NCBI GenBank assembly: GCA_027486755.1
Contig: JAIXOM010000043.1
Coordinates: forward strand, 1-64,000
Direction of reading: 5' to 3'
Length of the DNA stretch: 64,000 nt
Source of the DNA: Comamonadaceae bacterium
GTDB lineage: Bacteria; Pseudomonadota; Gammaproteobacteria; Burkholderiales; Burkholderiaceae_C
Shown here: positions 1,253 to 19,228 of the stretch, one piece after another
Layout of the letters: every line of letters begins with the position of its first letter
How positions within the stretch are numbered: the first letter of the stretch is position 1
Notes under the pieces: model-generated
What the model was told of the DNA's origin: nothing
Seen by the model: the letters and a program-made list of their open reading frames with translations, nothing else
Database searches by the model: none
Position numbers and translations under genes: made by a program

Positions 1253-2326
1253 TCAGCTGGGCGGTAATGCACCGAGCAGCCCTTGTACCTGCCCAGGCAG
1301 CCTGTAAAACCGGGCGGCGCTGCGGCCGAAGAGGTCGGCCTTTTCGTTGGCGCTCGCGCCTGCAGCCATCCGCTTAAAGGCGTTCCACAGCACCGCGTAG
1401 GAAAACATGCCTTTGTCGACCGGGAAGTTGCTCTCGAACATGCAGCGCTGCACGCCAAAGGCCTCGATGCAGGTCTGCACATGCGGCAACCACAGACGGG
1501 CCAGCTCCTGCGAGTCTGGCGGCTGGACCTGCTCATGAAAACGTGCGCCGCAGATCACCATGCCCATGCCACCGAGCTTGACGCTGACGTTCGGGCAGCG
1601 GGCCAGTTCCTCAATATCACGCCGCCAAGTCACAAACGTTTCCTGCTCGCGGCCCACATAGGGGCCGACGCCGATGATGCAGCCGAAATGGTCGAGCACG
1701 ATGGGCAGATCGGGCAGGGCCCGAGCGACTTCGGTGAGTTCGGCAATCTGGCTGTGATAGAGCATGGCGTCGTAGCTCATGCCAGCGCGCGCCACGGCGC
1801 GCAGGCCGGCGCGGTAGCGCGCATCGGCCAGCAACTGCGCCGGCGCTGGCCGCAGCACAATGCCGTCCGGAAAATGCGGATCGCGTCCCACGCTGTGGCG
1901 CACGCCTCGAAAGCGTTGCGGCGAGGCGCTCTGGTGCGCCTCAAGCACCTCTTCGACCGCCTCGCCCAGCAGCATGTCGGCGAAGCCGACGATGCCCGCG
2001 CACAAGAAGGGCGCGGGCTCCGGCTGACCCTGTGCGGCCACGATCTGCTCAATGTGCTCGGTCTCGCCCACGCAGCGCAAATGCTCGGGGCCACTGTCGC
2101 GGTAGGCATGGTGGGCCTGCACCAGCACGGTGGCCACCACCTTGTGGCCGCTGCACACATCGCCGCGCAGCTCAGGCAGTCCGTAGGGGTGGCCGTCATG
2201 GGCCCAAATATGGTGGTGGGGATCGACGATGGGCAGATCGGGCTCGAGGATGTCCTCCTGTACGCGAACCAGCCAGTCGGGCCTAGGAGGCGGGTAGCTC
2301 AGCTTGCCGGTCACGTCCAGAGCCAT
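1253..2326 (-). CDS. amidohydrolase family (amidohydrolase_2, TIM-barrel metal-dependent hydrolase)
   Basis: IVDPHHHIW N-terminal metal motif; VLDHFG and FESNFPVDK C-terminal motifs. Confidence 0.85.
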   Translation of the reverse strand: MALDVTGKLSYPPPRPDWLVRVQEDILEPDLPIVDPHHHIWAHDGHPYGLPELRGDVCSGHKVVATVLVQAHHAYRDSGPEHLRCVGETEHIEQIVAAQGQPEPAPFLCAGIVGFADMLLGEAVEEVLEAHQSASPQRFRGVRHSVGRDPHFPDGIVLRPAPAQLLADARYRAGLRAVARAGMSYDAMLYHSQIAELTEVARALPDLPIVLDHFGCIIGVGPYVGREQETFVTWRRDIEELARCPNVSVKLGGMGMVICGARFHEQVQPPDSQELARLWLPHVQTCIEAFGVQRCMFESNFPVDKGMFSYAVLWNAFKRMAAGASANEKADLFGRSAARFYRLPGQVQGLLGALPPS

Positions 2327-2368: not shown

Positions 2369-3163
2369 TCAGCGGTCTTGCAGTTGGGGCTGCCGCCCTT
2401 CCAGAAAGGCGCGCACGCCCTCGGCGCTGTCGGCTTTGGCTACCAGCTGGGCGGACATGGCCTGGGCATCCAGGTAGGCCTGCATCCAGCCCTTGCCCTC
2501 CAGGGCGACGCAAGCGGCTTTGCGAGCCCGCAGGGCAGGCAGGCTTTTGCTGGCAATCTGCGCAGCCAGCTCCAGCGCCCGGGGCATGACCTGCTCGGGC
2601 TCGACCACCGCGTTGAAAAAGCCTGTGGACTCGAGCTCGCCGGCGCTGAACTTGCGGCCGGTGTAGAGCATCTCTCTGACCTTGGCCTCGGGCATTTTGA
2701 GCAGGGCCATCAGGCCGGCGCCGCCGGCGACCAGCCCATAGTCGATTTCCGGGCAGGCGAACATGGCCTTGTTCGAGGCAATGCGCAGATCGCACAGGCC
2801 GGCCAGGATGAAGCCTATGCCGATGGCATGGCCATTGATGGCGGCGATCACCGGCCTGTCGAGTTGGTAGAAGCCAGGCAGGCGTTCGTTGATGAAGGCA
2901 TAGCGCTCCTTGCGCTTGGCCGTGTCCATGCCTACAAAATCCTTGAGGTCGGCGCCGCCGCACCAGGCGCGGCTGCTGTCGGGCGCGCTCAGGATGAGCA
3001 CGCGGATGTGGCTGCTTTGCTGCACATGCTCGACCAGGCGGCCTATGTCTTCATAGACCGACAGCGAGACGCTGTTGACCGGCGGTCGGGAGAACACCAC
3101 CGTGCCCACCCCCTGCTCAGACACGCTCAGGTGCAGGCTGCCTATTTGTTCGGAATCGCTCAT
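2369..3163 (-). CDS. enoyl-CoA hydratase/isomerase family protein
   Basis: Crotonase fold motifs CGGADLKDF and AINGHAIGIGFILAGLCDLRIAS. Confidence 0.88.
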   Translation of the reverse strand: MSDSEQIGSLHLSVSEQGVGTVVFSRPPVNSVSLSVYEDIGRLVEHVQQSSHIRVLILSAPDSSRAWCGGADLKDFVGMDTAKRKERYAFINERLPGFYQLDRPVIAAINGHAIGIGFILAGLCDLRIASNKAMFACPEIDYGLVAGGAGLMALLKMPEAKVREMLYTGRKFSAGELESTGFFNAVVEPEQVMPRALELAAQIASKSLPALRARKAACVALEGKGWMQAYLDAQAMSAQLVAKADSAEGVRAFLEGRQPQLQDR

Positions 3164-3194: not shown

Positions 3195-4217
3195 TCAGTG
3201 GTGGGTGAGCACCACCCGGCCGGCAGCGCTGCCTTGGGCCAGCAGGCTGTGGGCTTCGGCAGCTTGCTCGATCGGCAGGCTGTGGGCGATGCGTGGTTTG
3301 ATCTGCCCGCGTGCCACCAAATCGATCACCCGCTGGAGGTCGGCCACCAGCGCATGGCCACTGCCCACAATTTCGACCTCGCGCAAGATGGGGATGGCCG
3401 GGTTGAGCTGTACATTGCCGGGCTGCACATTGCCCACCATCACCAGCCGGGCGCCGGCGCTCAGGCTGCGCAAACTGGCGGCAAAAGTGGGGGCGCCTGC
3501 GATTTCAATCACCGCGTCGACGCCGCGGCCCTCGGTGATGTCGCGTGCGCTCTTGTGAAAGTCGCTGCCGCTCAGCACATGGTCGGCGCCGGCATTTTTG
3601 AGCAGCTCGCTCTTGTGCTCGGAGCTGGTAATGGCCAGCACCCGGTAGCCCATGAGCTTGGCCAGCTCCACCGTGTGTATGCCCACGCCGCCGGTGGCGG
3701 CGGTGATCAGCACGGTGTCACCCGGCTGCAGCCGGGCCCGCCCGAGGGCGTGAAAGCCGGTGCCGACGGCGCAGCTGAGGATGGCGCCGGTACTCAGATC
3801 GATGGAATCGGGAAGACGTACGGCGTTGCGCGGGCTGGCGATGACGAACTGGCCGTAGCCGCCCGAGATGTCTTCGCCATAAAAACCGGGCCCGTTGCGG
3901 CACAGGTTGTCGCGGCCGGCACGGCAGGTCGGACAGGTGCCGCAGGAGATGCGCTGGGTCAAGGCCACCCGGTCGCCGGGCGCAAATTGTTGGATCAGGG
4001 GGCCGACTTCCTCAACCACGCCAGAGATCTCATGGCCCATCACGCAGGGCAGGCGGGTGCCCGGGAAATGGCCCTGGCGGTTGAGCAGATCGTGCCCACA
4101 GACGCCGCAGGCATGGGTACGCACCAGCATCTGGTCGGCCAGATAGCTGGGTGTGGGTACCTCGGCCTGGTGCAGCACCTCGGGCCCGCCGAATCGCGTG
4201 AACAGTCCAGCCTTCAT
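3195..4217 (-). CDS. zinc-dependent alcohol dehydrogenase (MDR family)
   Basis: CGVCGHDL, GHEISGVVEEVG, CGTCPTCRAGRDNLC structural Zn motif, ITAATGGVGIHTVELAK Rossmann motif. Confidence 0.9.
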   Translation of the reverse strand: MKAGLFTRFGGPEVLHQAEVPTPSYLADQMLVRTHACGVCGHDLLNRQGHFPGTRLPCVMGHEISGVVEEVGPLIQQFAPGDRVALTQRISCGTCPTCRAGRDNLCRNGPGFYGEDISGGYGQFVIASPRNAVRLPDSIDLSTGAILSCAVGTGFHALGRARLQPGDTVLITAATGGVGIHTVELAKLMGYRVLAITSSEHKSELLKNAGADHVLSGSDFHKSARDITEGRGVDAVIEIAGAPTFAASLRSLSAGARLVMVGNVQPGNVQLNPAIPILREVEIVGSGHALVADLQRVIDLVARGQIKPRIAHSLPIEQAAEAHSLLAQGSAAGRVVLTHH

Positions 4218-4218
4218 C

Positions 4219-5019
4219 TCATGCTTCTCCCCAGGGCAGCCAGTGCTCGGCGGTGCCCGCCATCACGCTTTGCAACTGCTCGGCGCTCAGAAAGGGCAGG
4301 TGCTCGGTGAACATGGCAATGGCCTGTGGGTAGCTGCAGGCCATGCGGGTCAGGTCGGTGCCCCACATGGCTCGATCGGCGCCAAAGGCCTGAACTACCC
4401 GCTCGATATGGCCGTGCATGTCACGGTAGGGGAAGGGTTCGCTGGAATGGGCGGGCAGGGAGGACACCTTGACTGCCACATTGGTCAGATGGGCCAATTG
4501 CAGCACGCTGCTGACCTCGCGCTCAACCGCCTCGGCCTTGTCCATCACAAACAGATTGATGTGGTCGACGATGAAGCGGATGCGCGAAAAGCGCTGGGCC
4601 AATTCGCCGATGGTCGCTGCCCGCTTGGGCGCCCACATCATCACCGGCAGGGCCAGCTCGTTGGCCAGAGGCCAGAACCAGTCGGCGGTGCCGTCGTCGA
4701 GCCAGGACACCTCGCGGTAGGGCGGAAAGGTCAGCCGCGCGCCGATGAAGCCGCTGCTGGCCCACTGCGTCACGATGTCGCGGCTGGCCTGCTTGTCCAG
4801 GGTCAGCAGGGCCAGGGCCTTAAAGCGCTCGGGCCATTTTTTCGCGGCCTGCACGCACAGCTCATTGGCGCCGCTGTGGCCGGGGACCAGGTAGGTGCGC
4901 GAGACGCCGCAGGCATCCATCTGCGCAATGATTTCTTCGGCCGACATCGCCTGCTGCAGCATCTTGCTGGCAGCGGCCTGGTCGGTCCACAAATGAATTT
5001 GGCTGTCAATCAGGCGCAT
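4219..5019 (-). CDS. amidohydrolase family protein (amidohydrolase_2)
   Basis: MRLIDSQIHLW N-terminus; FIVDHINLF; MWGTDLTRM C-terminal motif. Confidence 0.82.
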   Translation of the reverse strand: MRLIDSQIHLWTDQAAASKMLQQAMSAEEIIAQMDACGVSRTYLVPGHSGANELCVQAAKKWPERFKALALLTLDKQASRDIVTQWASSGFIGARLTFPPYREVSWLDDGTADWFWPLANELALPVMMWAPKRAATIGELAQRFSRIRFIVDHINLFVMDKAEAVEREVSSVLQLAHLTNVAVKVSSLPAHSSEPFPYRDMHGHIERVVQAFGADRAMWGTDLTRMACSYPQAIAMFTEHLPFLSAEQLQSVMAGTAEHWLPWGEA

Positions 5020-5025
5020 GGTGCT

Positions 5026-6135
5026 TCAGGCCGGCAGGCTTGCGTCCAGCAAGCTGGCGGCCACCCGCTCGCGGTGCCAGCTGGCGTCGCCGAAGGCGTG
5101 CTCCAGGTATTTGCCGCGGCGCATGAACCAGTGGACGTCGAAAGCATGGGTAAAGCCAACGCCGCCATGAATCTGCAGCGCTTCGTTGCAGACCAGGCGG
5201 CACATATCGCTGCTGGCAGCCTTGGCCATGGAGACGGCCACCGGCACGCTGCTGTCCTCGTCGGCCAGGGCCCAGGCCGCGTGGTAGGCGCAGGAGCGAG
5301 CGCCTTCGAGGGCGACCAGCATGTCGGCAAACTTGTGCTTGATGGCCTGGAAGGCGCCGATGGGCTGGCCAAACTGGCTGCGCTGCTTGGCATAGTCCAG
5401 GGCCAGGTCCATGGCCGCAGTAGCTACACCGACCATCTGCAAGCTGGCGGCCAGAGCGCTGACATGGAGCAGGCGCTCGACCGCCTGCGTGCCGCCGGCC
5501 AATGGCTGCGCGGGCGTGGCCGCAAAGCTGACCTTGCACAGTCCGCTGTGATCGTCGATCGAGTGGTGCGGCGCAATCGTGAGGCCAGCCGCGCCGACTT
5601 CGCAGACAAATAAGCCGGCCTGTCCCTCGCTGCCGCGGGCCGACACCAGCAGGTGGGTGGCCGACGCGGCGGCGGGCACCAGCATTTTTTGGCCATTGAT
5701 TTGCCAGCCTTGGCCTTGCGGACGGGCCTGCACTTGCAGCCAGCTGGGGTCGCGGTCGGCTTCGTGCTGGGCCCAGCTCCAGCGCGCTTGGCCACTGGCC
5801 AGAGCCGGTAGCCACTGCGCCGCTTGCTCGGCGCTGGCTTGGCGGACCAGGGTGTCGCTGACCACCATGGTCTGAATCAGCGGAGCGGGCAGCAGGGCGC
5901 GGCCCATGTCTTCCCAGAGCAGGGCCGCATCGAGCAGGCCCAGGCCGGTGCCTTCATGGGCCTCGGGCACCAACAGGCTGGGCAGGCCGAGCTCGCACAG
6001 GCCCTGCCAGAGCTGCGCATCAAAGGCGCCGCCGCTGGCGCGCACCTGGGCCGGGCCAGCCTGGTCGTCCAGGAAGCGGCGCACGCTGTCGCGCAGCATG
6101 TATTGGTCGGAGTTGAAGTCGAAATCCATGGTCAA
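5026..6135 (-). CDS. acyl-CoA dehydrogenase (subunit 2-like)
   Basis: MDFDFNSDQYMLRDSVRRFLDDQ...; RSQFGQPIGAFQAIKHKFADM; QIHGGVGFTHAFDVHWFMRR. Confidence 0.88.
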   Translation of the reverse strand: MTMDFDFNSDQYMLRDSVRRFLDDQAGPAQVRASGGAFDAQLWQGLCELGLPSLLVPEAHEGTGLGLLDAALLWEDMGRALLPAPLIQTMVVSDTLVRQASAEQAAQWLPALASGQARWSWAQHEADRDPSWLQVQARPQGQGWQINGQKMLVPAAASATHLLVSARGSEGQAGLFVCEVGAAGLTIAPHHSIDDHSGLCKVSFAATPAQPLAGGTQAVERLLHVSALAASLQMVGVATAAMDLALDYAKQRSQFGQPIGAFQAIKHKFADMLVALEGARSCAYHAAWALADEDSSVPVAVSMAKAASSDMCRLVCNEALQIHGGVGFTHAFDVHWFMRRGKYLEHAFGDASWHRERVAASLLDASLPA

Positions 6136-6143
6136 TGCTTTGC

Positions 6144-7334
6144 TTATTTGGGCAGGCCCAGCACCCGCTCGGCCACCAGGTTGCGCTGGATCTCCGAGGT
6201 GCCCGAGTAGATGGTCATGGCGCGCGAGGCCAGGAAGCGGTGCGAGAAATGCCCTTGCGCGGGCGCTTGCGCATCAGCGGCCGACAGCACGCCGGCCGAG
6301 CCACCGACTTCCATCGCGATTTCGGTCAGCCGCTGGTACATATGGCTCCAGTAGAGCTTGGTGAACGATGATTCGACACCCAGTTCATCGCCACGGGCCA
6401 GCCGGGTCAAGCCGCGCAAGCCGTTGAGGCGCATGGTTTCGAGCTCGATGTGCGCGGCGGCCAGCTTCTGGCGCATCACCGGGTCCTGGCTGACGGGCTT
6501 GCCACCGCTTTGGACGCTCTTGGCCAGGGCCAGCAGGCGTTCGAATTCTCGCACAAAGCGCACCTGGCGGGGCAGGGCCTCTTCGGGGCCGCGCTCGAAA
6601 GCCAGGGTGGTCATGGCGATGCGCCAGCCCTGGTTGAGCTCGCCCACCAAATTGGCCACCGGTACCCGGACCTCGTCAAAAAAAACCTCATTGAATTCGG
6701 TCTCGCCGGTGATCTGTACCAGCGGGCGTATGGTGATGCCGGGGCTGCGCATGTCCAGCAGCAAAAAGCTCAAGCCCTTGTGCTTGAGCGCGTCGGGGTC
6801 GGTGCGTACCAGCATGAAGCACCAGTTGGAGTACTGGGCAAAGCTGGTCCAAATTTTCTGGCCGGTGACCACAAAGTCGTCGCCCTCGCGCACCGCTTTG
6901 CAACGCACCGAGGCCAGGTCTGAACCCGAGCCCGGCTCGGAAAAGCCCTGACACCAGACTTCCTCGCCGCGCAGGATGGGCGGCAGGAAGCGCTCCTTTT
7001 GCGCCGCGCTGCCGTGGGTCATCAGGGTTGGGCCGGTGAGGTTGCGGCCGATGATGTTCATGCCATCGGGCGCATCGGCGCGCGCCATCTCCTCCAGGAA
7101 GATGGCGTTTTCAATTGGGCTGGCGCCGCGGCCGCCGTATTGTTTGGGCCAGGTGATGCCCGACCAGCCGCCCTGGTAGAGCTTTTTCTCCCACTGCAGG
7201 CGAAAGGCGGCGCGTTCATCTTCGCCTTGGGGCTCAAACACCGTCTTGCCCCAGCCGGCGGGCAAATTGGCTTGGAGCCACTGGCGGATTTCAGATCGGA
7301 AGGCCTGCTGTTCGGGAGAGTCTTTGAGGTTCAT
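6144..7334 (-). CDS. acyl-CoA dehydrogenase
   Basis: WCQGFSEPGSGSDLASVRCKA; GQKIWTSFAQ; YSGTSEIQRNLVAERVLGLPK. Confidence 0.92.
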   Translation of the reverse strand: MNLKDSPEQQAFRSEIRQWLQANLPAGWGKTVFEPQGEDERAAFRLQWEKKLYQGGWSGITWPKQYGGRGASPIENAIFLEEMARADAPDGMNIIGRNLTGPTLMTHGSAAQKERFLPPILRGEEVWCQGFSEPGSGSDLASVRCKAVREGDDFVVTGQKIWTSFAQYSNWCFMLVRTDPDALKHKGLSFLLLDMRSPGITIRPLVQITGETEFNEVFFDEVRVPVANLVGELNQGWRIAMTTLAFERGPEEALPRQVRFVREFERLLALAKSVQSGGKPVSQDPVMRQKLAAAHIELETMRLNGLRGLTRLARGDELGVESSFTKLYWSHMYQRLTEIAMEVGGSAGVLSAADAQAPAQGHFSHRFLASRAMTIYSGTSEIQRNLVAERVLGLPK

Positions 7335-7346
7335 AAGGGGCGCGTG

Positions 7347-8138
7347 TTATTTCCCGCTGAATCGCGCAGGTCGCTTTTCCCGGAAGGCTTGCACGCCCTC
7401 GCGGTGGTCATCGGTCGATAGGGTGACGGCCAAGGCATAGGCCTCGAACTCGGCCAGCTGTTCTAGGCTGGCGTTGGGCGCCATATTGAGCAAGGTCTTG
7501 GTCAGCCCAATGGCTGCGGTCGGTCCTTGCGCCAGTTCTAGCGCAAGTTTGCGCGCTGTGCTCAAGAGCTCTTCAGCCGCTACCACTTCATGCACCAGGC
7601 CCATGGCCAAAGCCTCCTGGGCCGTGAGCATTCGCCCGGTCAGGCACAGGTCCTTGGCTCGGCCCAGCCCGACCAGCCGGCTCAAGAGGTAGAGGCCACC
7701 GGTATCGGGCACCAGGCCAACCTTGATGAAGGCCTGGCTCATCTTGGCCTCTTGCGCCGCAATCACAAAGTCGGCGGCCAGCGCCAGGTTCATGCCCGAG
7801 CCGACGGCCGCGCCGTTGACTGCAGCGATCACCGGCTTTTCCAGCCGCACCAGGGGCATGAATACCTCATGGAGCATGCGCCGCAGCTTGTTGCGATCGA
7901 TCAGCGGCGAGGACTCGAAGGCCTGCGCCATCTCGCCCATGTCGCCGCCAGCGCAAAAAGCGCGGCCGGCGCCGGTGAGCACCACCGCGCGCACCTGGGT
8001 ATCGCGCGCGAGCTCGCCTATCAATTGGGCGAGCTCGCTTTGCATGCCGCTGCTAAAGGCGTTGAGCCTGTCGGCACGGTTGAGGGTGACCGTGGCGACG
8101 GACTCGCTGATATCGAGCAGCAGCGTTTGATAGCCCAT
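7347..8138 (-). CDS. enoyl-CoA hydratase/isomerase
   Basis: FCAGGDMGEMAQ; AAVNGAAVGSGMNLALAADFVIA; C-terminal EGVQAFREKRPARFSGK. Confidence 0.92.
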   Translation of the reverse strand: MGYQTLLLDISESVATVTLNRADRLNAFSSGMQSELAQLIGELARDTQVRAVVLTGAGRAFCAGGDMGEMAQAFESSPLIDRNKLRRMLHEVFMPLVRLEKPVIAAVNGAAVGSGMNLALAADFVIAAQEAKMSQAFIKVGLVPDTGGLYLLSRLVGLGRAKDLCLTGRMLTAQEALAMGLVHEVVAAEELLSTARKLALELAQGPTAAIGLTKTLLNMAPNASLEQLAEFEAYALAVTLSTDDHREGVQAFREKRPARFSGK

Positions 8139-8159: not shown

Positions 8160-9329
8160 TTAGCGGGTAATGATGGAGCTGCGCATCAACACCTGAGCGT
8201 CCTTGATCTCATTGATGTTGATGACCACCTCGGACTGGTTGGTGCCGCTGAACTTGTAGGTTTGCAGCACGCCCTTGTACTCCAGGTTGTGCAGGGTGTC
8301 GCGCACTTTGGTCGAATCGATGGAGCCGGCTTTCTTCATGGCTTCGAACACCACCATAGCGCTGTCGTAACCGGTGGTCTCAAAGGGCAGGGGCTTGCGC
8401 TTGTTGGCCTGCTCGAACTGTGCCGAGAAGGCGCGCAGCTCCGGCGTGTCCGAGGTGGTCGAGCCCGTGGCCACAAACACGCCTTCGACGTTCCTGCCGG
8501 CGCTCTTGATGAAGGTCGGCGAGGACCAGATGGTCGAGGGGCTCAGGAAGATCGACCGCAGGCGGTTTTCCCGGTACTGCTTGATCATGGAGACGCCGTC
8601 TTCGATGAAGGCCGCGCCCATCACCGCGTCGGGGTTGGCAGCCCGCACCTTGGTCAGCAGGCTGGAGAAGTCCGTCGAGCCGGTGTCGAAGTATTCCTCG
8701 ACCACCACCTTGGCGCCCAGGCTGGTGGCACGTGCGACGATGGCCTTGCCCGAGGCGCGGCCCCAGTCGTCATTGCGACCCAGGTAGGCGATGGTCTTGA
8801 CGCCCTTTTCCTTGACCAGGAAGTCGACCGAGGGGTTGACGTTGTTGATCGAGGTCAGGGTGGTGCGAAAGCTGTAGCTCAGCTCGGGCGAGATCACTGC
8901 GGGCGCCGAGGCCACGAAGCTCATGGCCAAGGTTTTGTTTTTCTCCAGCGTGGGCAGCACCGCCAGCGTGGTGGTGCTGGCCGGGGTGGTGAAGACCACC
9001 GAGACTTTTTCTGCGGTCACCAGGCGTTCGGCCGCGGCCACTGCGCGCTCGACCTTGGATTCGTCGTCAATATTGACCAGCTGCAAGGTATAGGTATCGC
9101 TGCCGACCTTCAGGCCGCCGGCTGCATTGACCTGCTTGACCGCGTATTCGAGACCGACCACGCCTTCCTTGCCGATGGAGGCGTTGGGCCCGGTCAGCGA
9201 GAGGATGGATCCGACCTTGAGCACCTTGGCCCCCTGGGCTTGGGCCATGGGAGCGGACAGGCACAGGGCCAGGGCGGCGCCGGCCACGGCCAGACGTCGG
9301 CTTACTTTGACGGGATTGAAAGTGCGCAT
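8160..9329 (-). CDS. branched-chain amino acid-type ABC transporter substrate-binding protein
   Basis: Signal peptide, then VLKVGSILSLTGPNASIGKEGVVGLEYAVKQVNAAGG (LivK-like periplasmic binding protein). Confidence 0.9.
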   Translation of the reverse strand: MRTFNPVKVSRRLAVAGAALALCLSAPMAQAQGAKVLKVGSILSLTGPNASIGKEGVVGLEYAVKQVNAAGGLKVGSDTYTLQLVNIDDESKVERAVAAAERLVTAEKVSVVFTTPASTTTLAVLPTLEKNKTLAMSFVASAPAVISPELSYSFRTTLTSINNVNPSVDFLVKEKGVKTIAYLGRNDDWGRASGKAIVARATSLGAKVVVEEYFDTGSTDFSSLLTKVRAANPDAVMGAAFIEDGVSMIKQYRENRLRSIFLSPSTIWSSPTFIKSAGRNVEGVFVATGSTTSDTPELRAFSAQFEQANKRKPLPFETTGYDSAMVVFEAMKKAGSIDSTKVRDTLHNLEYKGVLQTYKFSGTNQSEVVININEIKDAQVLMRSSIITR

Positions 9330-9344: not shown

Positions 9345-10904
9345 TTAGTGAGTTGGCTTGCTGAGAAACTGGCGCAGTTCGCGCCTGAGAATTTTTCCGG
9401 TGGGCCCCTTGGGCAGCTCGGGCAGGATGGCGACCGCGTCGGGCACCTTGAAGTAAGCCAGATCGACCTTGCAGTGGGCCAGCAGCGCCGCGCTGTCGGT
9501 GTGGGCGCCCGGCTTGAGCGCCACAAAGGCGGTCGGCACCTCGCCCAGCGATTCGTCAGGCCGTGCGACCACCGCAGCTTCGGCCACTGCCGGGTGGCGG
9601 TACAGGGCCTCTTCAATGTCGGCCGGGTAGATGTTCTGGCCGCCGCGAATGATCAGGTCCTTCTTGCGGTCGACGATGGTGTAGTAGCCATCGCTGTCGC
9701 GGGTGCCCAGGTCACCGGTGCGCAGCCAGCCGCGCACCAGGGCTTCGCCGCTGGCCTCAGGCATCTTGTAGTAGCCCTTCATCACGCAGGGGCCTTTGAC
9801 GCAGATCTCGCCCACGGTGCCGTCGGGCACGCTCTGGCAAGCCTCATCCCAGATGGCCATCTCGATGCCGGGCAGCGGCAGGCCTATGGACTTGGCCCGG
9901 ATGAGCTCGCCATCAGGCCCGGCTTTGACTTCATGGGTGGCCACGATGGCGGTGGCCTCGGTCAGGCCGTAGCCGGTGAGCACTCGCGCCTGTGGGCCTA
10001 TGCGTTCATGCAGGCGCGCCAGCAGCGGCGCAGGCACAGGCGCTGCGCCCACGCAAAAACGCCGCAGGCTGCTCAGGTCGTAGTTTTCCACCTCGGGGTG
10101 GTAGAGCACCCGCTGCAGCATGGTGGGCACCGCCGGGAAAAAAGTGCAGCGGTATTGCGCAATGGCCTGCATGCAGGCCAGGGGGTCAAAGCGCGGCAGC
10201 ATCACCATCGTGGCGGCCAGGCTGATGCTGGCATTGATGCATTGGTTCAGGGCGAAGGTGTTGTAAAGCGGCAGCGGACACAGCAGCACATCGTCATGGC
10301 TGAGCAGCAGCCACGAGGGCGAGGCGTCGTAGTTGGCCTCGAGATTCCCCACCGTCAGCATCACCCCCTTGGCCTTGCCGGTGGTGGCGCTGGTGTAGAG
10401 CATCATCGGCACCGCATCGGCGCTCAGGTCCTCTGGCGGCGGCGCTTGCTCGGCACTGCCCAGCAGATCCTCGGCTGGCTTGAGCAGCGCTTGTTGGGCC
10501 TCTTCGATCGGGCCGAAAACCCGGATCTGGCGCAGCGTGGGGCAGCGCGCCTTGATGTCGGGCTTCAGACGCTGCGCAAATTCGCTGTCGAGCACCAAGT
10601 GGTCGGCTTCGCAGACCGACAGCGCATGCTCAATCTCATGGCCTTGGTAGAACACATTGAGCGGCAAGATGGTGCCACCCAGAATAAATACCGCATACTG
10701 CAGCGCGATGAAATCGGGCCGGCTGGCCAGCATCAGGCCGAGCTTGTCGCCGCGCTCAAAGCCCGAGCGTTTGAGCCCCGCCGCATAGCTTTGGCTGCGC
10801 GCCAGCAGGTCGGCGAAGGTCCAGGCCTGGCCCTCGAAAATCACCGCCGCCTTGCTGCCGTGCTGGCTGGCTGCTCGGTACAGGGCGTCGGCCCGATTGC
10901 TCAT
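9345..10904 (-). CDS. AMP-dependent acyl-CoA synthetase/ligase
   Basis: MLYTSATTGKAKGV; TGYGLTEATAIV; GWLRTGDLGTRDSDGYYTIVDRKKDLIIRGGQNIYPADIE; GPTGKILRREL. Confidence 0.94.
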   Translation of the reverse strand: MSNRADALYRAASQHGSKAAVIFEGQAWTFADLLARSQSYAAGLKRSGFERGDKLGLMLASRPDFIALQYAVFILGGTILPLNVFYQGHEIEHALSVCEADHLVLDSEFAQRLKPDIKARCPTLRQIRVFGPIEEAQQALLKPAEDLLGSAEQAPPPEDLSADAVPMMLYTSATTGKAKGVMLTVGNLEANYDASPSWLLLSHDDVLLCPLPLYNTFALNQCINASISLAATMVMLPRFDPLACMQAIAQYRCTFFPAVPTMLQRVLYHPEVENYDLSSLRRFCVGAAPVPAPLLARLHERIGPQARVLTGYGLTEATAIVATHEVKAGPDGELIRAKSIGLPLPGIEMAIWDEACQSVPDGTVGEICVKGPCVMKGYYKMPEASGEALVRGWLRTGDLGTRDSDGYYTIVDRKKDLIIRGGQNIYPADIEEALYRHPAVAEAAVVARPDESLGEVPTAFVALKPGAHTDSAALLAHCKVDLAYFKVPDAVAILPELPKGPTGKILRRELRQFLSKPTH

Positions 10905-11614
10905 GTGCTTGCCTCTCCCAGGTACATATCCCGTACCGCCATGTCATTGAGTAACTCTTGGCCGCTGCCCTGGCGCACCACCTGGCCTGTGGCCATCACA
11001 TAGCCGCGGTGGGCCAGCTTGAGGGCCATGCGGGCGTTTTGCTCGACCAGCAAGATGGTGGTGCCGTCCTGGTTGAGCGAGCGGATGATGCGCCCGAGTT
11101 GCTGAACGATGGTCGGTGCCAGGCCGAGCGAGGGCTCGTCGAGCAGCAGCAGCCGCGGCCGGCTCATCAGCGCCCGGCCTAGGGCCAGCATTTGCTGCTG
11201 TCCGCCGCTGAGCAGGCCGCCGTTTTGCGACAGCTTTTCGCGCAGGATGGGAAAGAGCTCGAGCACGCGTTCCAGGTCTTGCCGCATGTGAGCGGTGTCA
11301 CGCCGGTAGTAGGCGCCGAGGTCGAGGTTTTCTCGCACCGTCAACTCCGGAAACACATGGCGGCCTTCGGGCACCAGGGCCACGCCCCGGCGAATCATCT
11401 CGGGCGAAGAGTCGCGGGTGACGTCCTGCCCCGCAAGCTCAATGCGGCCCGCCGTGGGCCGCAGCACGCCGCAGATGGTGCGCAGCAAGGTGGACTTGCC
11501 CGCTCCGTTGGCGCCGATGATGGTGACGATTTCGCCCTGCGCCACCGAGACGCTGACGCCATGCAGCGCCTCGACCGCGCCGTAGCTGACCTTGAGACCC
11601 TGGACTTCAAGCAT
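10901..11614 (-). CDS. livF: branched-chain-type ABC transporter ATP-binding protein
   Basis: [65 protein letters not shown]. Start at internal Met. Confidence 0.92.
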   Translation of the reverse strand: MLEVQGLKVSYGAVEALHGVSVSVAQGEIVTIIGANGAGKSTLLRTICGVLRPTAGRIELAGQDVTRDSSPEMIRRGVALVPEGRHVFPELTVRENLDLGAYYRRDTAHMRQDLERVLELFPILREKLSQNGGLLSGGQQQMLALGRALMSRPRLLLLDEPSLGLAPTIVQQLGRIIRSLNQDGTTILLVEQNARMALKLAHRGYVMATGQVVRQGSGQELLNDMAVRDMYLGEAST

Positions 11615-12401
11615 CGTCCTCGACCCCCAGATAGGCCTGGATGACGCGCTCGTGCGCGCGCACCTCCTGCGGCGTTCCCTCGGCGATCTTGCTGCCCTGG
11701 TCGAGCACCACGATGCGGTCGCAGATGCGCATGACCGAAGGTACATCGTGCTCGACCAGCACCACGGTGATGCCAGCATCGCGGATGCGCCTGACCATAT
11801 TGGCCGCCCGCTGCGTCTCGGTGGTGTTCATCCCGGCAAAGGGCTCGTCGAGCAGCAGCAACTGCGGCTTGAGCGCCAGGGCGATGGCGATGCCCAGCAG
11901 GCTCTGGTGGGCATAGGACAGTGAGCCTGCGGTCTCCTCGGCCAGTTCGGCCAGACCGGTCCAGGCCAGCACCTCTTGGCTGCGCTGGCGGGCCTGCTCT
12001 TGCACCGCACGGGCTTGGGCGCCACCCAGCCAGTCGGCCCAAAGGCCCAGCGGCTGCAAGGCCATGGCGCCCACTTCCACATTGGCTGCCACGCTCAGCT
12101 TGGGAAAGACCCGCGCGCCCTGAAAGGTGCGGGCAATCCCGCAGGCGGCGATTTGATCGGGCCGCAGGCCGGTGAGTAACTGGCCCTGGAGCCTGACGCT
12201 GCCCGCATTGCTGGGAAAGCGCCCGGAGATCAGGTTGAAGGTCGTGGTCTTACCGGCGCCGTTGGGCCCTATCAGTCCAACGATCTCGCCGCGCTGGACT
12301 TGAAAGGACACCTCATTGACCGCAACCACCCCGTGAAAGCGCCGGGTCAGGCCCTGAACCTCCAGGAAGGGCGCGCCTTTGTCGGTGATGCGCTCAGTCA
12401 T
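11607..12401 (-). CDS. livG: branched-chain-type ABC transporter ATP-binding protein
   Basis: [58 protein letters not shown]. Confidence 0.92.
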
Positions 12402-13353
12402 GCTGGGTCTCCTTGCGCGCCGCACCCCGACCACTGAGGCGGCGCAGCAGCGGCAGCAAGCCGCCGATCAGGCCGCCTGGCAGGAACAAGGTGACCACGA
12501 TCAGCAGCACGCCCATCATGATGGGGCGCATCTCGCGGGCAAAGCTGAGTAGCTCAGGCACGTAGATCAGGAAGATGGCGCCCAGCAGCGGGCCGGCCAG
12601 CGTGCCTATGCCGCCGACGATGACCATCACCACCATGTCGACCGAGGCAAAGATGGAAAACTGATTGGGCGCCAGCACCGTTAGGAAGGGGCCCATCAGC
12701 AAGCCGCCTAGGCCGGCGATGAATGCGCTGATGCACAGCGCGATCAGCTTGTGCCGGCTCAGGCCCACGCCGACAAATTCAGCCAGGGTTTCGTCCTCGC
12801 GCATGGCCACGAACATGCGGCCGGTGCGCGAACGCACCAGCGCGATCAGCGCCAGGGTGGACAGGGCCAGCACCAGCAGCACCAGGTAGAAAAAACTCAG
12901 CTTGGTGTCAAAGGCCAGGCCCAGCACCGGTTCTGGCGGGGTGATCTGCCGCAGGCCCACAGGCCCTCCGGTCACGTCCTGCCAGTTGGCCAGGATCAAG
13001 CGCACGATTTCGCCAAAGGCCAGCATGACCAGCACAAAAAACGGCCCACGCAAGCGCATGGTGATGGACCCCACCGCAGCGGCGCACAGCACCACGACAG
13101 CCAGAGCCACCGGTGCGGCGGCCCAAAAGCTCCAGCCCAGCTTGAGGCGCAGCAGGGTCGAGACATAGGCGGCGATGCCCACAAAGGCGGCTTGACCGAA
13201 ATTGATTTCGCCGGCATAGCCCAGCAGCAAGCCCATGCTCAAAGCCAAAATGCTCCACAGCAGGGTCAGGGTCAGCAGATAGATTTGGTAGTCGCTGAGC
13301 ACTGGCGCGAGCAGGCCCAGCAGCAACAAGCCGATAAGGACGGTGCGGCTCAT
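12394..13353 (-). CDS. livM: branched-chain-type ABC transporter permease
   Basis: Hydrophobic; GYAGEINFGQAAFVGIAAYVS; MVVMVIVGGIGTLAGPLLGAIFL. Confidence 0.9.
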   Translation of the reverse strand: MSRTVLIGLLLLGLLAPVLSDYQIYLLTLTLLWSILALSMGLLLGYAGEINFGQAAFVGIAAYVSTLLRLKLGWSFWAAAPVALAVVVLCAAAVGSITMRLRGPFFVLVMLAFGEIVRLILANWQDVTGGPVGLRQITPPEPVLGLAFDTKLSFFYLVLLVLALSTLALIALVRSRTGRMFVAMREDETLAEFVGVGLSRHKLIALCISAFIAGLGGLLMGPFLTVLAPNQFSIFASVDMVVMVIVGGIGTLAGPLLGAIFLIYVPELLSFAREMRPIMMGVLLIVVTLFLPGGLIGGLLPLLRRLSGRGAARKETQHD

Positions 13354-14207
13354 GTGCTGCGTACCCCCAGCAAGCCTGTCGGCCGCCACAGCAGCACGGC
13401 GAGCATGATCAGGAAAGTGAATACATCCTTGAAGGCATTGCTGATGTAGGCGCCCACCAGGGTCTCGGTCAGTCCGATGACCAGGCCGCCAACGATGGCG
13501 CCGGGCACACTACCGAGTCCGCCGAAGATGACGATCACAAAGGCCTTGAGCAGTGGCGAGCCGCCCATGCTCGGTTCGGTGGCATAGAGCGCCCCGATCA
13601 GCGAGCCGGCCACGCAGGCCATGGCGCCGGAGACGGCAAAGGCAAAGCTGATGACCCGGTCCACATTGAGCCCGATGGTTTCGGCGCCAAAGCGGTTTTG
13701 CGCCACTGCCCGCAGGGCTCGGCCTATGCGCGCCTTGTAGAGCAGGGCGTACAGCCCGGTGACCATGATCAGCAGGAAAGCGACGGCCAACAGCCTTTGG
13801 TGGGTGATGAGGATATCGCCGAACTCCAGCGCTCCGTCCAGCCCGGTTTCCATCTGGCGCGGTGCGGTGCCCCAGATCAGGATGGCCACTTCCCGCAGCA
13901 CATAAAGCATGCCGGTGGTCACCAACAGGGCTTGCAGGTCGGTGCCGCGCATCACCGGCCGTATGGCCAGCAGGTAGGCGGCCACGCTGAGCAGGGCGGT
14001 CATGCCCATGGCCAGCGGCAGCGCAATGAAAAAGTCCACACCCGTGATGGTCATGGTGGTGAGCGTCAGGAAGGCACCGAGCATCAGAAACTCGCCGTAG
14101 GCGAAGTTGACCACCCGGGCCACGCCGAAGATCAAGGTAAAGCCCAAGGCCGACAGGGCGTAGATGCTTCCCAGGACGAGCCCGTTGATCAGTTGCTGAG
14201 CCAGCAT
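13350..14207 (-). CDS. livH: branched-chain-type ABC transporter permease
   Basis: LINGLVLGSIYALSALGFTLIFGVARVVNFAYGEFLMLGAF; VIFGGLGSVPGAIVGGLVIG. Confidence 0.92.
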   Translation of the reverse strand: MLAQQLINGLVLGSIYALSALGFTLIFGVARVVNFAYGEFLMLGAFLTLTTMTITGVDFFIALPLAMGMTALLSVAAYLLAIRPVMRGTDLQALLVTTGMLYVLREVAILIWGTAPRQMETGLDGALEFGDILITHQRLLAVAFLLIMVTGLYALLYKARIGRALRAVAQNRFGAETIGLNVDRVISFAFAVSGAMACVAGSLIGALYATEPSMGGSPLLKAFVIVIFGGLGSVPGAIVGGLVIGLTETLVGAYISNAFKDVFTFLIMLAVLLWRPTGLLGVRST

Positions 14208-14250
14208 GCGGAGGGTGGTTTCATGGTCGGACAGGGTAGCGGGTCATTTG

Positions 14251-14278
14251 AATAACCCGAAAACTTATCGGATTATGA
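14251..14278 (-). promoter_or_regulatory. candidate TetR operator copy 1 (25-bp imperfect palindrome) upstream of livH
   Basis: aATAACCCGAAAACTTATCGGATTATga; arms ATAACCCGA / TCGGATTAT (8/9 pairing). 25 of 28 positions match the copy at 15182-15209. Confidence 0.75.
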
Positions 14279-14299
14279 TCATCGACCTTAGCTTGTCAA
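14272..14299 (-). promoter_or_regulatory. predicted sigma70 promoter for the livH-led operon
   Basis: Minus strand: TTGACA (14299-14294), 16-nt spacer, CATAAT (14277-14272). The -10 lies inside operator copy 1. Confidence 0.7.
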
Positions 14300-14354
14300 T
14301 GGGGCTGATCGGGGTGGGTGGGTCTGCATGGCGCCTGGGTTACAAAGGCCTTGC

Positions 14355-15071
14355 TCAGGCTTGGACAGGTGCGAGTGGTACGCCGTCAAAGAAGCGCCGC
14401 TCCAGGGTTACGAATGACACGTCCGCGACATCGTGTAAACCCTTGCTCGCCAACTCGGACAAAAGTCCTGCAGCCAGCGCCTGCTCCAACTCGCTGAGGC
14501 TGTCAAAGCGCAAAATCTGAATCAGCGCCCAATCGAGATCGGCAGTAGTTACTGCCCCCGGCAGGCGAAAGCTGCCCGGCAGCACCTGGTTGATCTCCCA
14601 GCCCCTGATGAGTCGCACGGCCTGCTGCGGGCCACCCGAGCGCGCCGCCAGCCAGGCCCGGGCCCTTGTTTCTGCGCGGGCTGTGTCGGGTCGCTGGGGC
14701 GACACCAGCCAGAGCTTGATGGGCGCTTTCCCCTCCTGAATGACGGTTTCGCGCGCCGTCATCGATACCGTGCCGCCGAAGTCAATGAAGCGCGCTTCGT
14801 CCGGGCGTATGCGCTGCTGGTAGATCGCCGTGGTGGCAAATTCATCTTCATTGTCTGCAGGCAGCCAGAACTCGGCCACCCCAGCCCAGGTCGGCGGCAG
14901 GCCCTGCGGGCCCACCGGCAGCCATTGGTTCTGGATATAGCGCAGCCTGTATTGCAGATAGCCTGGCGACTGGCTCACCAGCGGTCCGTGGACTTCACGC
15001 CAATAGCGCTCGAACTGTTCACGGTTGAGGTCCTTATGGGGCTGGAGCAGGGCGATTTTTTTCAGAGACAT
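14355..15071 (-). CDS. EthD-like domain protein
   Basis: MSLKKIALLQPHKDLNREQFERYWREVHGPLVSQSPGYLQYRLR; EthD-type N-terminus. Confidence 0.7.
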   Translation of the reverse strand: MSLKKIALLQPHKDLNREQFERYWREVHGPLVSQSPGYLQYRLRYIQNQWLPVGPQGLPPTWAGVAEFWLPADNEDEFATTAIYQQRIRPDEARFIDFGGTVSMTARETVIQEGKAPIKLWLVSPQRPDTARAETRARAWLAARSGGPQQAVRLIRGWEINQVLPGSFRLPGAVTTADLDWALIQILRFDSLSELEQALAAGLLSELASKGLHDVADVSFVTLERRFFDGVPLAPVQA

Positions 15072-15160
15072 GGTCGGCAAGATCGTGGGTGGTGAATGCC
15101 AGTCTGAGGCCTGGACGAATTTTCCTTATGCGCGTTTCCCCGCGGTTTTTATCGGATCGA

Positions 15161-15188
15161 TTGACAAACACGCCGTCTTGTTCATAAT
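15161..15188 (+). promoter_or_regulatory. predicted sigma70 promoter for the thiolase-like/TetR operon
   Basis: TTGACA (15161-15166), 16-nt spacer, CATAAT (15183-15188); same geometry as the livH promoter. Confidence 0.7.
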
Positions 15189-15209
15189 CCGATAAATTTT
15201 CAGATTATT
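15182..15209 (+). promoter_or_regulatory. candidate TetR operator copy 2
   Basis: tcATAATCCGATAAATTTTCAGATTATt; arms ATAATCCGA / TCAGATTAT around TAAATTT. Overlaps the predicted -10. Confidence 0.75.
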
Positions 15210-15225
15210 GCGAAGGACCGTCGCG

Positions 15226-16362
15226 ATGAGTTTTCAAGGCAGTCAGCCGGTGGCGATCGTCGCTACCGCGCAAACCCAGTGGCGAGCGACTTGGTCGCAG
15301 GCCCAACACATAGACCTGATCGCAGCGGCGGTACAAAACGCGCTCAAGGGCAGCGGACTTGACATCCGTGATGTGGATTTCGTCATCGACAGCGGCAGCG
15401 ATGTGCTTGACGGTCGCAGCATTTCCAACTGCGGCTTCCTGGGCGCCATGGGCGCTCATCACAAAGAGGAGTCGCGGGTCGAGGACGATGGTCTGTGGGC
15501 CGCGCAATACGGCGTGGCCAAGATTGCCAGCGGCTCGGCGCAGGTCGGCCTGATCATTGCCTATTCCAAGCCCTCAGAATCTGACGTCAGCCAGTATTAC
15601 CGCACCATGGCCGACCCCTTCATCCAGCGGCCGGTCGGCCTGGACGAAGAAAGCGCCTGCGGTCTGCAGGCCCAGCGCTACCTGCACGCCCACCAACTGA
15701 CGCCGGCCGATCTGGCCGAGGTGACGGTGGCGGCCTGGCGCAAGGCCAGCAGCAATCCGACGGTTGAGCTCGATCAGGTGCCCTCGGTCAGCCAGGTGCT
15801 GGCCTCGCCCATGGTCGCCTCGCCCTTGACCCAGGCCATGATGGCCAGGCCGGTGGATGGGGCGGTGGTCATGGTGCTGGCCAATGCCAGCGTGGCCCGC
15901 CGGGTTACCACAGCACCGGTCTGGGTCAAGGGCATAGGCGCGGCCATGGACAGCAGTGTTTTTGCCATGCGCGATGCACAGTTCGATGTCTGCCGGCAAG
16001 CGGCTCAAAGAGCCTATGCCCGAGCCGGCCTGAGCGCGGCGCAGATGGATTTGGCAGAAACCAGCGCCACTTCAGCAGCAGCCGAGTTGATGACGCTGGA
16101 GGCCTTGGGCCTGGCCGAGCCGGGCAAGGCCATCGATCTGTTCCGCCAGGGGCGTGACGCCGGCATCAATGCCTCGGGTGGCGCTTTGCCGGCCAACCCC
16201 ATCATGGCCACCGGCCTGGTGCGCCTGAGCGAGGCCGCGCAGGCCCTGTGGGGCCAGCGCGCTAGCAGCGCCAAGAACAGCCGGCGCGCCGTCGTGCATG
16301 CCAGTTCGGGCATCGCCGCCCAGTCCCATTGCGTATTTGTTGTCGAGGTGGAGCGCCCATGA
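15226..16362 (+). CDS. thiolase-fold (SCP-x/Ltp-like) protein
   Basis: MSFQGSQPVAIVATAQTQW...DVDFVIDSGSDVLDGRSISN; C-terminal NASGGALPANPIMATGLVRLSEAAQAL. GAAGGA spacing favours the 15226 ATG. Confidence 0.85.
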   Translation: MSFQGSQPVAIVATAQTQWRATWSQAQHIDLIAAAVQNALKGSGLDIRDVDFVIDSGSDVLDGRSISNCGFLGAMGAHHKEESRVEDDGLWAAQYGVAKIASGSAQVGLIIAYSKPSESDVSQYYRTMADPFIQRPVGLDEESACGLQAQRYLHAHQLTPADLAEVTVAAWRKASSNPTVELDQVPSVSQVLASPMVASPLTQAMMARPVDGAVVMVLANASVARRVTTAPVWVKGIGAAMDSSVFAMRDAQFDVCRQAAQRAYARAGLSAAQMDLAETSATSAAAELMTLEALGLAEPGKAIDLFRQGRDAGINASGGALPANPIMATGLVRLSEAAQALWGQRASSAKNSRRAVVHASSGIAAQSHCVFVVEVERP

Positions 16363-17510
16363 GCCGAGTTGCCATCATCGGGGTCGGTCAGACCCACCAT
16401 CAGCGCCGCCGTGCCGATGTCAATGTGCCCGGTCTGGTGCGCGAGGCGGCCCAGCGGGCCTTGGCCGATGCCAAGCTGGAGATGTCCGACATTGACTCGG
16501 TGGTGGTGGCCAGCGGCCCGGTTCTGTTCGCCGCGGTCAATCAGCCCGAGAAATGGGTGGTCGATGCTTTGGGCGCGCGCGGCAAGCCCGTGGTGCGCAT
16601 CACCAGCGGCGGCGGTACCGGCTTTGCCGGCGCCTTGGGAGGCTACTACCAGGTCGCCGGCGGTCAGGCCGATCGGGTGTTGGTGGTTGCGTACGACAAG
16701 CTCTCTGAAGGCGCCTTGCAGGCCTCGATCTCCAGCCTCTACGACCCCTTTTGGGGCCGCGAGTTTGCGGTCGGCATCATGGGCTTTTCAGCGGCCTATT
16801 GGCGTGCTCGCATGGACAAGCTTGGCCATACCGAAGAAGCGGCAGCTCGGGTGGTGGTCAAGAACCTCAGCAATGCACGCCTGAACCCCTATGCCCATGT
16901 GCGCAAGACGGTCACGGTCGACGATGTGCTCAAGTCGGCCCCCTTGGCCTGGCCGATCAAGCTGCTGGACGTGCCACCGATTTCTGACGGCGCGGCTGCA
17001 GTGGTCCTCACCCGCGAGGACCTGGCCGCTCAGCACACCAACACCCCGGCCTTTATCCGCGGCATCGCCTATTGCGCCGAAGCCGACAACGCGCCGCAGC
17101 GCTCGATGCTGATGTCTGAGCCGCTGGCGCACGCGGCCCGTGTGGTCTACCGGGCCAGCGGCATCACCAACCCGCGGCGTCAGTTCGACGTGGTGGAGTT
17201 GCAGGAGCCTTACAGCTGCTTTGAATTGAGTTACTACGAGAGTCTGGGCCTGTGCCGGCCTGGTGGCGCGGCTGAGCTGATCGCCTCGGGTGCGACCGAG
17301 ATGGGGGGCGATATTCCGGTCAATCCTTCTGGCGGCTGCCAGGGGGCCAACCCCATTGGTGCTGCGGGGCTGATCCGCTTGGTGGAGGCGGCGATGCAAG
17401 TCACTGGACGCGCCGGTGAGCACCAGGTGCCGGGCGCTCGCCTGGCCGCAGCACAGACCGGCGGTGGCTGGGCCAATTTGCGCGGCCTGGCCGTCGTTAG
17501 CGCAGACTGA
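16359..17510 (+). CDS. thiolase-fold (SCP-x/Ltp-like) protein
   Basis: MSRVAIIGVGQTHHQRRRADVNVPGLVREAAQRAL; VVELQEPYSCFELSYYESLGL; VNPSGGCQGANPIGAAGLIRLVEA. ATGA overlap with the upstream gene. Confidence 0.88.
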   Translation: MSRVAIIGVGQTHHQRRRADVNVPGLVREAAQRALADAKLEMSDIDSVVVASGPVLFAAVNQPEKWVVDALGARGKPVVRITSGGGTGFAGALGGYYQVAGGQADRVLVVAYDKLSEGALQASISSLYDPFWGREFAVGIMGFSAAYWRARMDKLGHTEEAAARVVVKNLSNARLNPYAHVRKTVTVDDVLKSAPLAWPIKLLDVPPISDGAAAVVLTREDLAAQHTNTPAFIRGIAYCAEADNAPQRSMLMSEPLAHAARVVYRASGITNPRRQFDVVELQEPYSCFELSYYESLGLCRPGGAAELIASGATEMGGDIPVNPSGGCQGANPIGAAGLIRLVEAAMQVTGRAGEHQVPGARLAAAQTGGGWANLRGLAVVSAD

Positions 17511-17545: not shown

Positions 17546-18475
17546 ATGCATCTGGCCCCCGATACCGTCCCGCTGGACTTGCCGCCGCTGCAAAGCACCA
17601 TCGCACTGCCTTACCGGCTCACACCGGGCAAGGCCACTGGCACCTTTTTGGCCGAATTGGCAGCGCGCCGTATTGTCGGCACGCGCTGCCGGCGCTGCCA
17701 GCGGGTGGAAGTGCCAGCCCAAGACGTCTGCAGCTGCGGCCATGACGAACTGGAGTTCGTCGCGGTGAGCACCGCTGGCACTTTGCAGTCCTATACCCGC
17801 ATGCCTGACAAGACCCTGGGTTTGATACGGCTCGATGGCTGCGATTGCGATTTGCTGCACCGTCTGCATGGCGATCATGAATGGGCGGTCGGGCAAAGGC
17901 TGCAGGCCTGCTGGAGCGACAGCCCGCAGGCGCAGGCCCTCGATCTCCTGGGCTTCGAGCCAGCAGGTCAGGGCGCAGTGGCTGGCCTTGCTCCGGCAGC
18001 CTTTGAGGCCTCACGCGAGCCGCTGGACAGCATGGCCACCGAACTCAAGCTGCACTATCAGCATGCGGCCGGCCCCTATTACGGGCGCCTGTTTGACGAG
18101 ATGCGCACCTCTGGCCGGATCATGGGCATACGCTGCAGCCACTGCCAGAGCACCTTGCTGCCGCCGCGTGAGCTTTGCGATGTTTGCTATGAGCGTACCG
18201 GCACCTGGGCCGATGTGGCCGATACTGGGGTGTTGCAGGCTTTTTCCATCATCCACCTCAAATTTATCGGCCAGCGGCGCGACCCGCCTTATGTTTACGC
18301 CGAGGTCATGCTCGACGGTGCTTCGACCAAGATCATCCACATGCTCGACGGTGTGGATATCGAGGCTGCGCCGGCCCGGCTCAAACCCGGCATGCGGGTC
18401 AAGGCAGTCTGGAAGGCTGAACGCAAGGGCTCGCTGGATGACATCTCGCACTTCGAGTTGATCGACCCGATTTAA
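17546..18475 (+). CDS. tandem DUF35 (Zn-ribbon + OB-fold acyl-CoA associated) protein
   Basis: Two Zn-ribbon modules: CRRCQRVEVPAQDVCSCG and CSHCQSTLLPPRELCDVC, each followed by an OB-fold-like segment. Confidence 0.82.
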   Translation: MHLAPDTVPLDLPPLQSTIALPYRLTPGKATGTFLAELAARRIVGTRCRRCQRVEVPAQDVCSCGHDELEFVAVSTAGTLQSYTRMPDKTLGLIRLDGCDCDLLHRLHGDHEWAVGQRLQACWSDSPQAQALDLLGFEPAGQGAVAGLAPAAFEASREPLDSMATELKLHYQHAAGPYYGRLFDEMRTSGRIMGIRCSHCQSTLLPPRELCDVCYERTGTWADVADTGVLQAFSIIHLKFIGQRRDPPYVYAEVMLDGASTKIIHMLDGVDIEAAPARLKPGMRVKAVWKAERKGSLDDISHFELIDPI

Positions 18476-18490
18476 AACCGGGGCGCTGCA

Positions 18491-19228
18491 TTGGCTGCTT
18501 CAACCGCTTTGCTCGCAACTGGACCCGCGACCAGCAGCCCGGCGCTGCGCTGGGAGCAGGTGGTGCTGCAGGCACTCGAGCGTGGGCGCGCGCAATCGCC
18601 CAAGGCCAAGCAGTCGCGCAGCCGCGACCGCCACGCTGAAATTCTCAGCGCTGCGGTGCGGGTGTTTGCCCGCGACGGCATTGCCCGTGCCCGCATTGCC
18701 GACATCGCCGCCGAGGCGGGAGTGCCGCTGTCATCGGTCTACGACTATTACGACAGCAAGGAAGACATCGCTTATGCGGTGCCGATCGCTCAGACCAGCG
18801 AGTTTGTGGCGGAATTTCATGCCAAAGCGCTCAAGCTGGAGGGGGCCGATGAGCGTCTGTACCTGTTCATGTGGCTGACGGTTGACTTTGCGCGGCGCCA
18901 CCAAGACTGGGCCCGTACCCTCTATCTGGAGGTCTGGCCCAGCGTGATGGTCAACAAGACCCGGGTCAAGGATTCGCTCGACGATTTCGGTCGCATCATG
19001 TACACCCTGATTCAGGACGGCGAGCAGGCCGGCCTTTGGCCGGCCGATCCCAACCGCTACCAGACGGTAACGATTTTTATAGGCAGCCTCAGCCAGATGA
19101 TCATCACCTGGCTGCTCTACAAACGGCCCCGGCAGTTGATGAAGGCCACCGCGCCCTTGGTGCAGCGTTTGATGGGGCTGCTGCAAACCTCGGCCCCCGT
19201 TATTGAGCAGCGCAGGCCTAAAAACTAG
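18491..19228 (+). CDS. TetR-family transcriptional regulator (TTG start)
   Basis: RHAEILSAAVRVFARDGIARARIADIAAEAGVPLSSVYDYYDSKEDI, a canonical TetR HTH. No ATG upstream of the HTH. Confidence 0.9.
   Translation: MAASTALLATGPATSSPALRWEQVVLQALERGRAQSPKAKQSRSRDRHAEILSAAVRVFARDGIARARIADIAAEAGVPLSSVYDYYDSKEDIAYAVPIAQTSEFVAEFHAKALKLEGADERLYLFMWLTVDFARRHQDWARTLYLEVWPSVMVNKTRVKDSLDDFGRIMYTLIQDGEQAGLWPADPNRYQTVTIFIGSLSQMIITWLLYKRPRQLMKATAPLVQRLMGLLQTSAPVIEQRRPKN

Follow-up and report, generated by a model that had tools for sequence, protein, structure and literature searches.

Two near-identical palindromes in a 64,000-nucleotide stretch of Comamonadaceae DNA (the window, meaning the whole stretch analysed) are very probably the operators of the TetR-family regulator encoded at 18491-19228 which, judged from sequence, would be an autoregulated repressor acting on two operons at once and relieved by an acyl-CoA of the pathway. 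A search of the literature found neither the locus nor the operator described; the specific regulon and operator are new, and the mechanism, a TetR repressor circuit, is conventional. The palindrome is defined precisely enough to be searched for in whole genomes, as the operator of a so far uncharacterised catabolic module with an SCP2-type thiolase, a double DUF35 protein, an amidohydrolase and two acyl-CoA dehydrogenases. It would reveal which genes belong to one pathway across distant bacteria and narrow the inducer to a pathway intermediate, and a mapped repressor-operator pair could be usable as a biosensor part.

Paired promoters and palindromes in the window

The elements discussed below are as follows.
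14272-14299, minus strand: livH promoter, TTGACA-N16-CATAAT (TTGACA 14299-14294, CATAAT 14277-14272)
14252-14276, minus strand: putative operator O1, ATAATCCGATAAGTTTTCGGGTTAT on the minus strand, across the -10 box of the livH-led operon
15161-15188, plus strand: thiolase operon promoter, TTGACA-N16-CATAAT (TTGACA 15161-15166, CATAAT 15183-15188)
15184-15208, plus strand: putative operator O2, ATAATCCGATAAATTTTCAGATTAT, across the -10 box of the thiolase/DUF35/tetR operon
15149-15157, plus strand: lone half-site TTATCGGAT, directly 5' of the -35 of the thiolase operon promoter

The paired TTGACA-N16 promoters claimed in a preliminary description of this DNA read in the sequence as described, each matching the sigma-70 consensus at 11 of 12 positions. 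A scan of 14100-15400 yields just these two promoter-like sites, where shuffles would yield 0.4. Its account of the palindromes likewise held: the two copies are identical at 25 of 28 positions, a match that a repeat search widens to 31 nt at 87%, and O1 and O2 are 25-bp palindromes of the type ATAAYCYGA-N7-TCRGRTTAT, with 9-nt arms (8 of 9 paired) around a 7-nt centre. Each starts in the -10 box, has 5 nt in common with the -10 hexamer and reaches over the expected start site. Shuffles of the window gave an expectation of 0 for palindromes of this type, and the genome-wide motif search that the preliminary description had proposed returned O1 and O2 as the sole copies with at most three mismatches in 3,996,478 bases. 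When a looser 21-bp core was searched for across the genome, few weaker places were found besides O1 and O2, about the same number as in the reversed control.

Genes of the two operons

The O2 operon runs on the plus strand and the O1 operon on the minus strand, both listed here in the order of reading.
15226-16362, plus strand: thiolase-like protein (ThlA-like), no Pfam Thiolase_N match, orthologues 50-55% identical
16329-17510, plus strand: SCP2-type thiolase (Thl)
17546-18475, plus strand: double DUF35 protein (ChsH2-type zinc ribbon plus OB fold)
18491-19228, plus strand: TetR-family regulator, predicted repressor, last gene of the O2 operon
13350-14207, minus strand: livH-type permease, first gene of the O1 operon
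12394-13389, minus strand: livM-type permease
11607-12434, minus strand: livG-type ATPase
10901-11779, minus strand: livF-type ATPase
9345-10904, minus strand: AMP-binding acyl-CoA ligase, sphingomonad orthologue in the operator-bearing divergent unit
8160-9329, minus strand: periplasmic substrate-binding protein of the Liv-type transporter
7347-8138, minus strand: enoyl-CoA hydratase ECH_b
6144-7334, minus strand: acyl-CoA dehydrogenase ACAD_b, 55-62% in related loci
5026-6135, minus strand: acyl-CoA dehydrogenase ACAD_a
4219-5019, minus strand: Amidohydro_2 protein
3195-4217, minus strand: zinc-type alcohol dehydrogenase/quinone reductase
2369-3163, minus strand: enoyl-CoA hydratase ECH_a, 57-69% in related loci
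1253-2326, minus strand: Amidohydro_2 protein g1253, orthologue leads a divergent unit with an operator in 17 of the 20 related loci

The minus-strand array also encodes a TctC-type receptor, and the tight spacing of its same-strand genes suggests that the array from livH to g1253 forms one transcript. When the domain content was examined for the pathway substrate, none could be fixed. The ThlA-like protein, partnered by the full thiolase and the fused double DUF35 protein, may form a retro-aldolase/thiolase complex. Between the two promoters lies an EthD-domain gene (14355-15080, minus strand), for which no homologue was detected in the sphingomonad loci.

Conservation of the putative operator in related loci

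The orthologous thiolase operon was retrieved from 20 genomes. In 17 of these loci, g1253 and the CoA ligase gene are divergent from the ThlA-like/Thl/DUF35 operon, which runs on into ECH_b/ACAD_b/ACAD_a where the contig allows; the loci without g1253 at this place are L145 (the Rhodospirillaceae MAG), L135 and L137. Most of the intergenic regions contain two motif sites. One precedes the TTGAC of the ThlA-like promoter by 1-4 nt in every one of the 20 loci, though L135 has only a weak match of 13.7 bits; the TTGAC-type -35 is itself at the same place in all 20, and most have a CATAA-like -10 downstream. The other occupies the leader of the divergent g1253 where that gene is present (weak in L146, at 9.3 bits, and in L141, at 13.9 bits). 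Across the 18 TetR-linked loci, exact TCCGA-N7-TCGGA was observed 8 times versus 0.3 expected, and ATCCGA arms with at most one mismatch at a spacing of 7 were observed 14 times versus 1.3 expected. Scanning spacings from 0 to 15 in the same loci gave enrichment at 7 alone, with 0-2 at other spacings, and on these counts the conserved core of the putative operator is TCCGA-N7-TCGGA.

A symmetric weight matrix was trained on sites from 16 of the 20 relatives, without any window sequence. Over the 64 kb its two best sites are the window operators, at 23.4 bits each, and the next site reaches 8.5 bits; base-shuffled locus sequence (1.85 Mb) contained no site of 16 bits or more. The preliminary description had made its reading depend on whether the motif is conserved in front of orthologous loci, and there it is conserved. 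No alignment was found between relatives and window in the promoter DNA flanking the motif, which therefore constitutes a phylogenetic footprint.

The position of the operator differs between the two groups, being on the -10 in the window and 5' of the -35 in sphingomonad thiolase promoters. The third half-site previously noted at 15149-15157 is present, and stands in register with the full operator of the sphingomonad promoters, but it was rejected as a second, independently functional half-site, its partner (left) arm being unrecognisable and the best matrix score in that register -6.2. From its sequence it is probably a degenerate operator, at the position that sphingomonads use just 5' of the -35, and a reasonable supposition is that the operator once lay beside the -35 and later shifted onto the -10 box, with this half-site as a remnant.

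Distribution of the regulator and the thiolase

At E <= 1e-20 the TetR was found in 1 of 60 relatives, and among 399 genomes of the order both it and Thl were found only in the window genome. Even samples of the order and phylum contained Thl in no other genome, and a plasmid collection contained no TetR homologue. Homologues of the TetR, 41-50% identical, occur in sphingomonads and in one Rhodospirillaceae MAG; all 20 genomes that carry one also have Thl (73-78% identical), and within 301 sphingomonad-family genomes the same 5 hold both. From this distribution the catabolic module looks to be shared horizontally, with the TetR travelling with it. We give an even chance to a wider reading, in which this hitherto undescribed regulon of a TetR and an acyl-CoA, recognisable by TCCGA-N7-TCGGA, is the signature of a mobile catabolic module that sphingomonads, the Rhodospirillaceae MAG and a lineage of Comamonadaceae have in common. 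On this reading the operator would have relocated from beside the -35 to the -10 box, and would have been set ahead of a recently acquired Liv-type transporter operon. In the one close relative (L012/G021, TetR at 89-90%) the contig ends inside the ThlA-like gene, short of the operator, and no other contig carries the promoter. The Thl orthologue of the MAG L134/L154 (G600:C505) has one in-frame TAA, reflecting an assembly error or a pseudogene.

Linkage of the motif to tetR

Each of the 18 sphingomonad/Rhodospirillaceae loci has the palindrome upstream of its tetR homologue, at a distance of 99-241 bp and with scores of 14.0-25.2 bits that 0 of 1000 shuffles per locus reach; as the related loci were chosen via the TetR, this linkage is partly conditioned on the choice, and the relatives are akin to one another, their counts not being independent events. 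The presence of the palindrome before tetR in every locus ties the motif to this regulator and to autoregulation. A palindrome thus stands at target promoters and at the regulator's own gene, as in operators of the TetR family, on sequence evidence only. The autoregulation suggested in the preliminary description is supported: it would be implied by membership of tetR in the O2 operon in the window and by the upstream site in relatives. A second TetR paralogue, at 41-45% to that of the window, is encoded in four Sphingobium-type loci (L018, L019, L022 and L027), each time about 115 bp downstream of a weaker motif copy of its own.

Linkage does not equal binding, however, and the palindromes might be operators of another, unlinked regulator (a TetR or a global one), with the 18491 TetR acting elsewhere. 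The window genome encodes three weaker TetR matches besides its one close TetR of this type, and the paralogue in some Sphingobium loci offers a further candidate. We consider this improbable, given that the motif precedes the tetR homologue at all 18 loci, that in the window genome it is confined to this locus with its single close TetR, and that the TetR and the thiolase show exact co-occurrence. The extended likeness of O1 and O2, and their same phase to the -35, could also come from a promoter fragment that was duplicated recently and is constitutive, the palindrome then having no role of its own. This is highly improbable: the 16-nt spacers of the two promoters differ, and the core palindrome recurs in relatives though the promoter DNA is otherwise unalignable, which argues for selection on the palindrome. 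The second operator copy may itself have arisen by duplication.

The regulator and its nearest known relatives

The N-terminus of the 18491-19228 protein contains a TetR_N helix-turn-helix (PF00440; 45.1 bits, cut-off 24) that is almost unchanged among the 20 TetR homologues, a near-invariance of sequence that fits one operator common to them all. The AlphaFold model (pLDDT 80, pTM 0.77, ten helices) has the predicted all-helical, two-domain TetR fold, with matches to TetR proteins at TMt up to 0.90. The nearest solved folds are those of Bacillus FadR (YsiA; PDB 3whb, 3whc and 5gp9), including its stearoyl-CoA complex (named in the title of 3whc), at TMt 0.83-0.90, followed by KstR2, SaFadR and PfmR; the sequence search likewise points to FadR, which is the best match in both structure and sequence. 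In Bacillus, FadR keeps beta-oxidation operons repressed until acyl-CoA releases it. Identity between the two proteins is about 21%, which says little about the exact ligand, and the window TetR scores 68.6 bits against the NCBIfam FadR equivalog NF053878, far below the cut-off of 200. Its gene set is also unlike that of FadR, combining an SCP2-type thiolase and DUF35 protein with a Liv transporter. On the strength of the model, the window TetR would work like FadR without being filed as FadR.

Other described systems share parts of this arrangement. For example, EdcR of the sphingomonad Caenibius tardaugens is a TetR repressor of a steroid operon with estradiol/estrone as effector, and its palindrome overlaps the -10 of two operon promoters and, in a less conserved form, that of its own gene (PMC8700777). 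The window system is similar in having a predicted TetR repressor in a catabolic cluster and putative operators over the -10 of two operon promoters; by inspection, however, the EdcR operator TnnCnnTACnAnTnGTAnnGnnA is unlike the window operators in core and length (PMC8700777), the latter carrying the TCCGA-N7-TCGGA core rather than an EdcR-type palindrome. For the bile-salt TetR of C. tardaugens, the palindromes ATAGGGCCATTG and GCATGCGGGATGC have been proposed; these were considered as the same motif and rejected, as they bear no resemblance to the window operators (PMC12882949). In actinobacteria, KstR and KstR2 are TetR repressors of acyl-CoA-type steroid catabolism, and the signal that releases them is a CoA ester of the pathway (PMC8700777). 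The fold search with the window TetR also matched KstR2, but the sequence similarity of KstR and KstR2 to it is at the helix-turn-helix level only, and KstR regulons are actinobacterial. Their operator sequences also differ from those of the window.

Proposed mechanism

From the above we infer that the TetR physically binds these sites, that it represses and does not activate, that its ligand is an acyl-CoA, and how far the transcript starting at livH extends. A repressor dimer (or dimer pair) over the -10 box and start region would bar RNA polymerase at both promoters, and the placement of the predicted sites across these elements fits steric repression. Repression would jointly cover the uptake/activation/beta-oxidation operon (livH to g1253) and the thiolase/DUF35 operon, and the position of tetR as last gene of the latter would lead to autoregulation. 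A CoA ester from the pathway's CoA ligase or early beta-oxidation enzymes would then bind the TetR and free the DNA, and this release would induce both operons together. A pathway acyl-CoA is the most likely inducer, with fair confidence, because of the FadR-like predicted fold and the CoA-ester gene content.

The TetR might instead be an activator, or respond to the free substrate rather than a CoA ester. The operator of the sphingomonad thiolase promoter abuts the -35 from upstream, a position that activators also use, and EdcR, a TetR repressor of a steroid operon, answers to the steroid itself (PMC8700777). Both readings are made unlikely by the window sites, which cover the -10 and start region in a steric-block position, and by the nearest folds, which are acyl-CoA-responsive repressors.

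Further motif copies in sphingomonad loci

Strong copies of the motif (24.6-28.5 bits) were also found in L015 at 9511, L017 at 6959, L020 at 7943, L022 at 11899 and L023 at 10438. In L022 and L018 a site adjoins a luciferase-like monooxygenase gene, suggesting that the sphingomonad regulon has further members.
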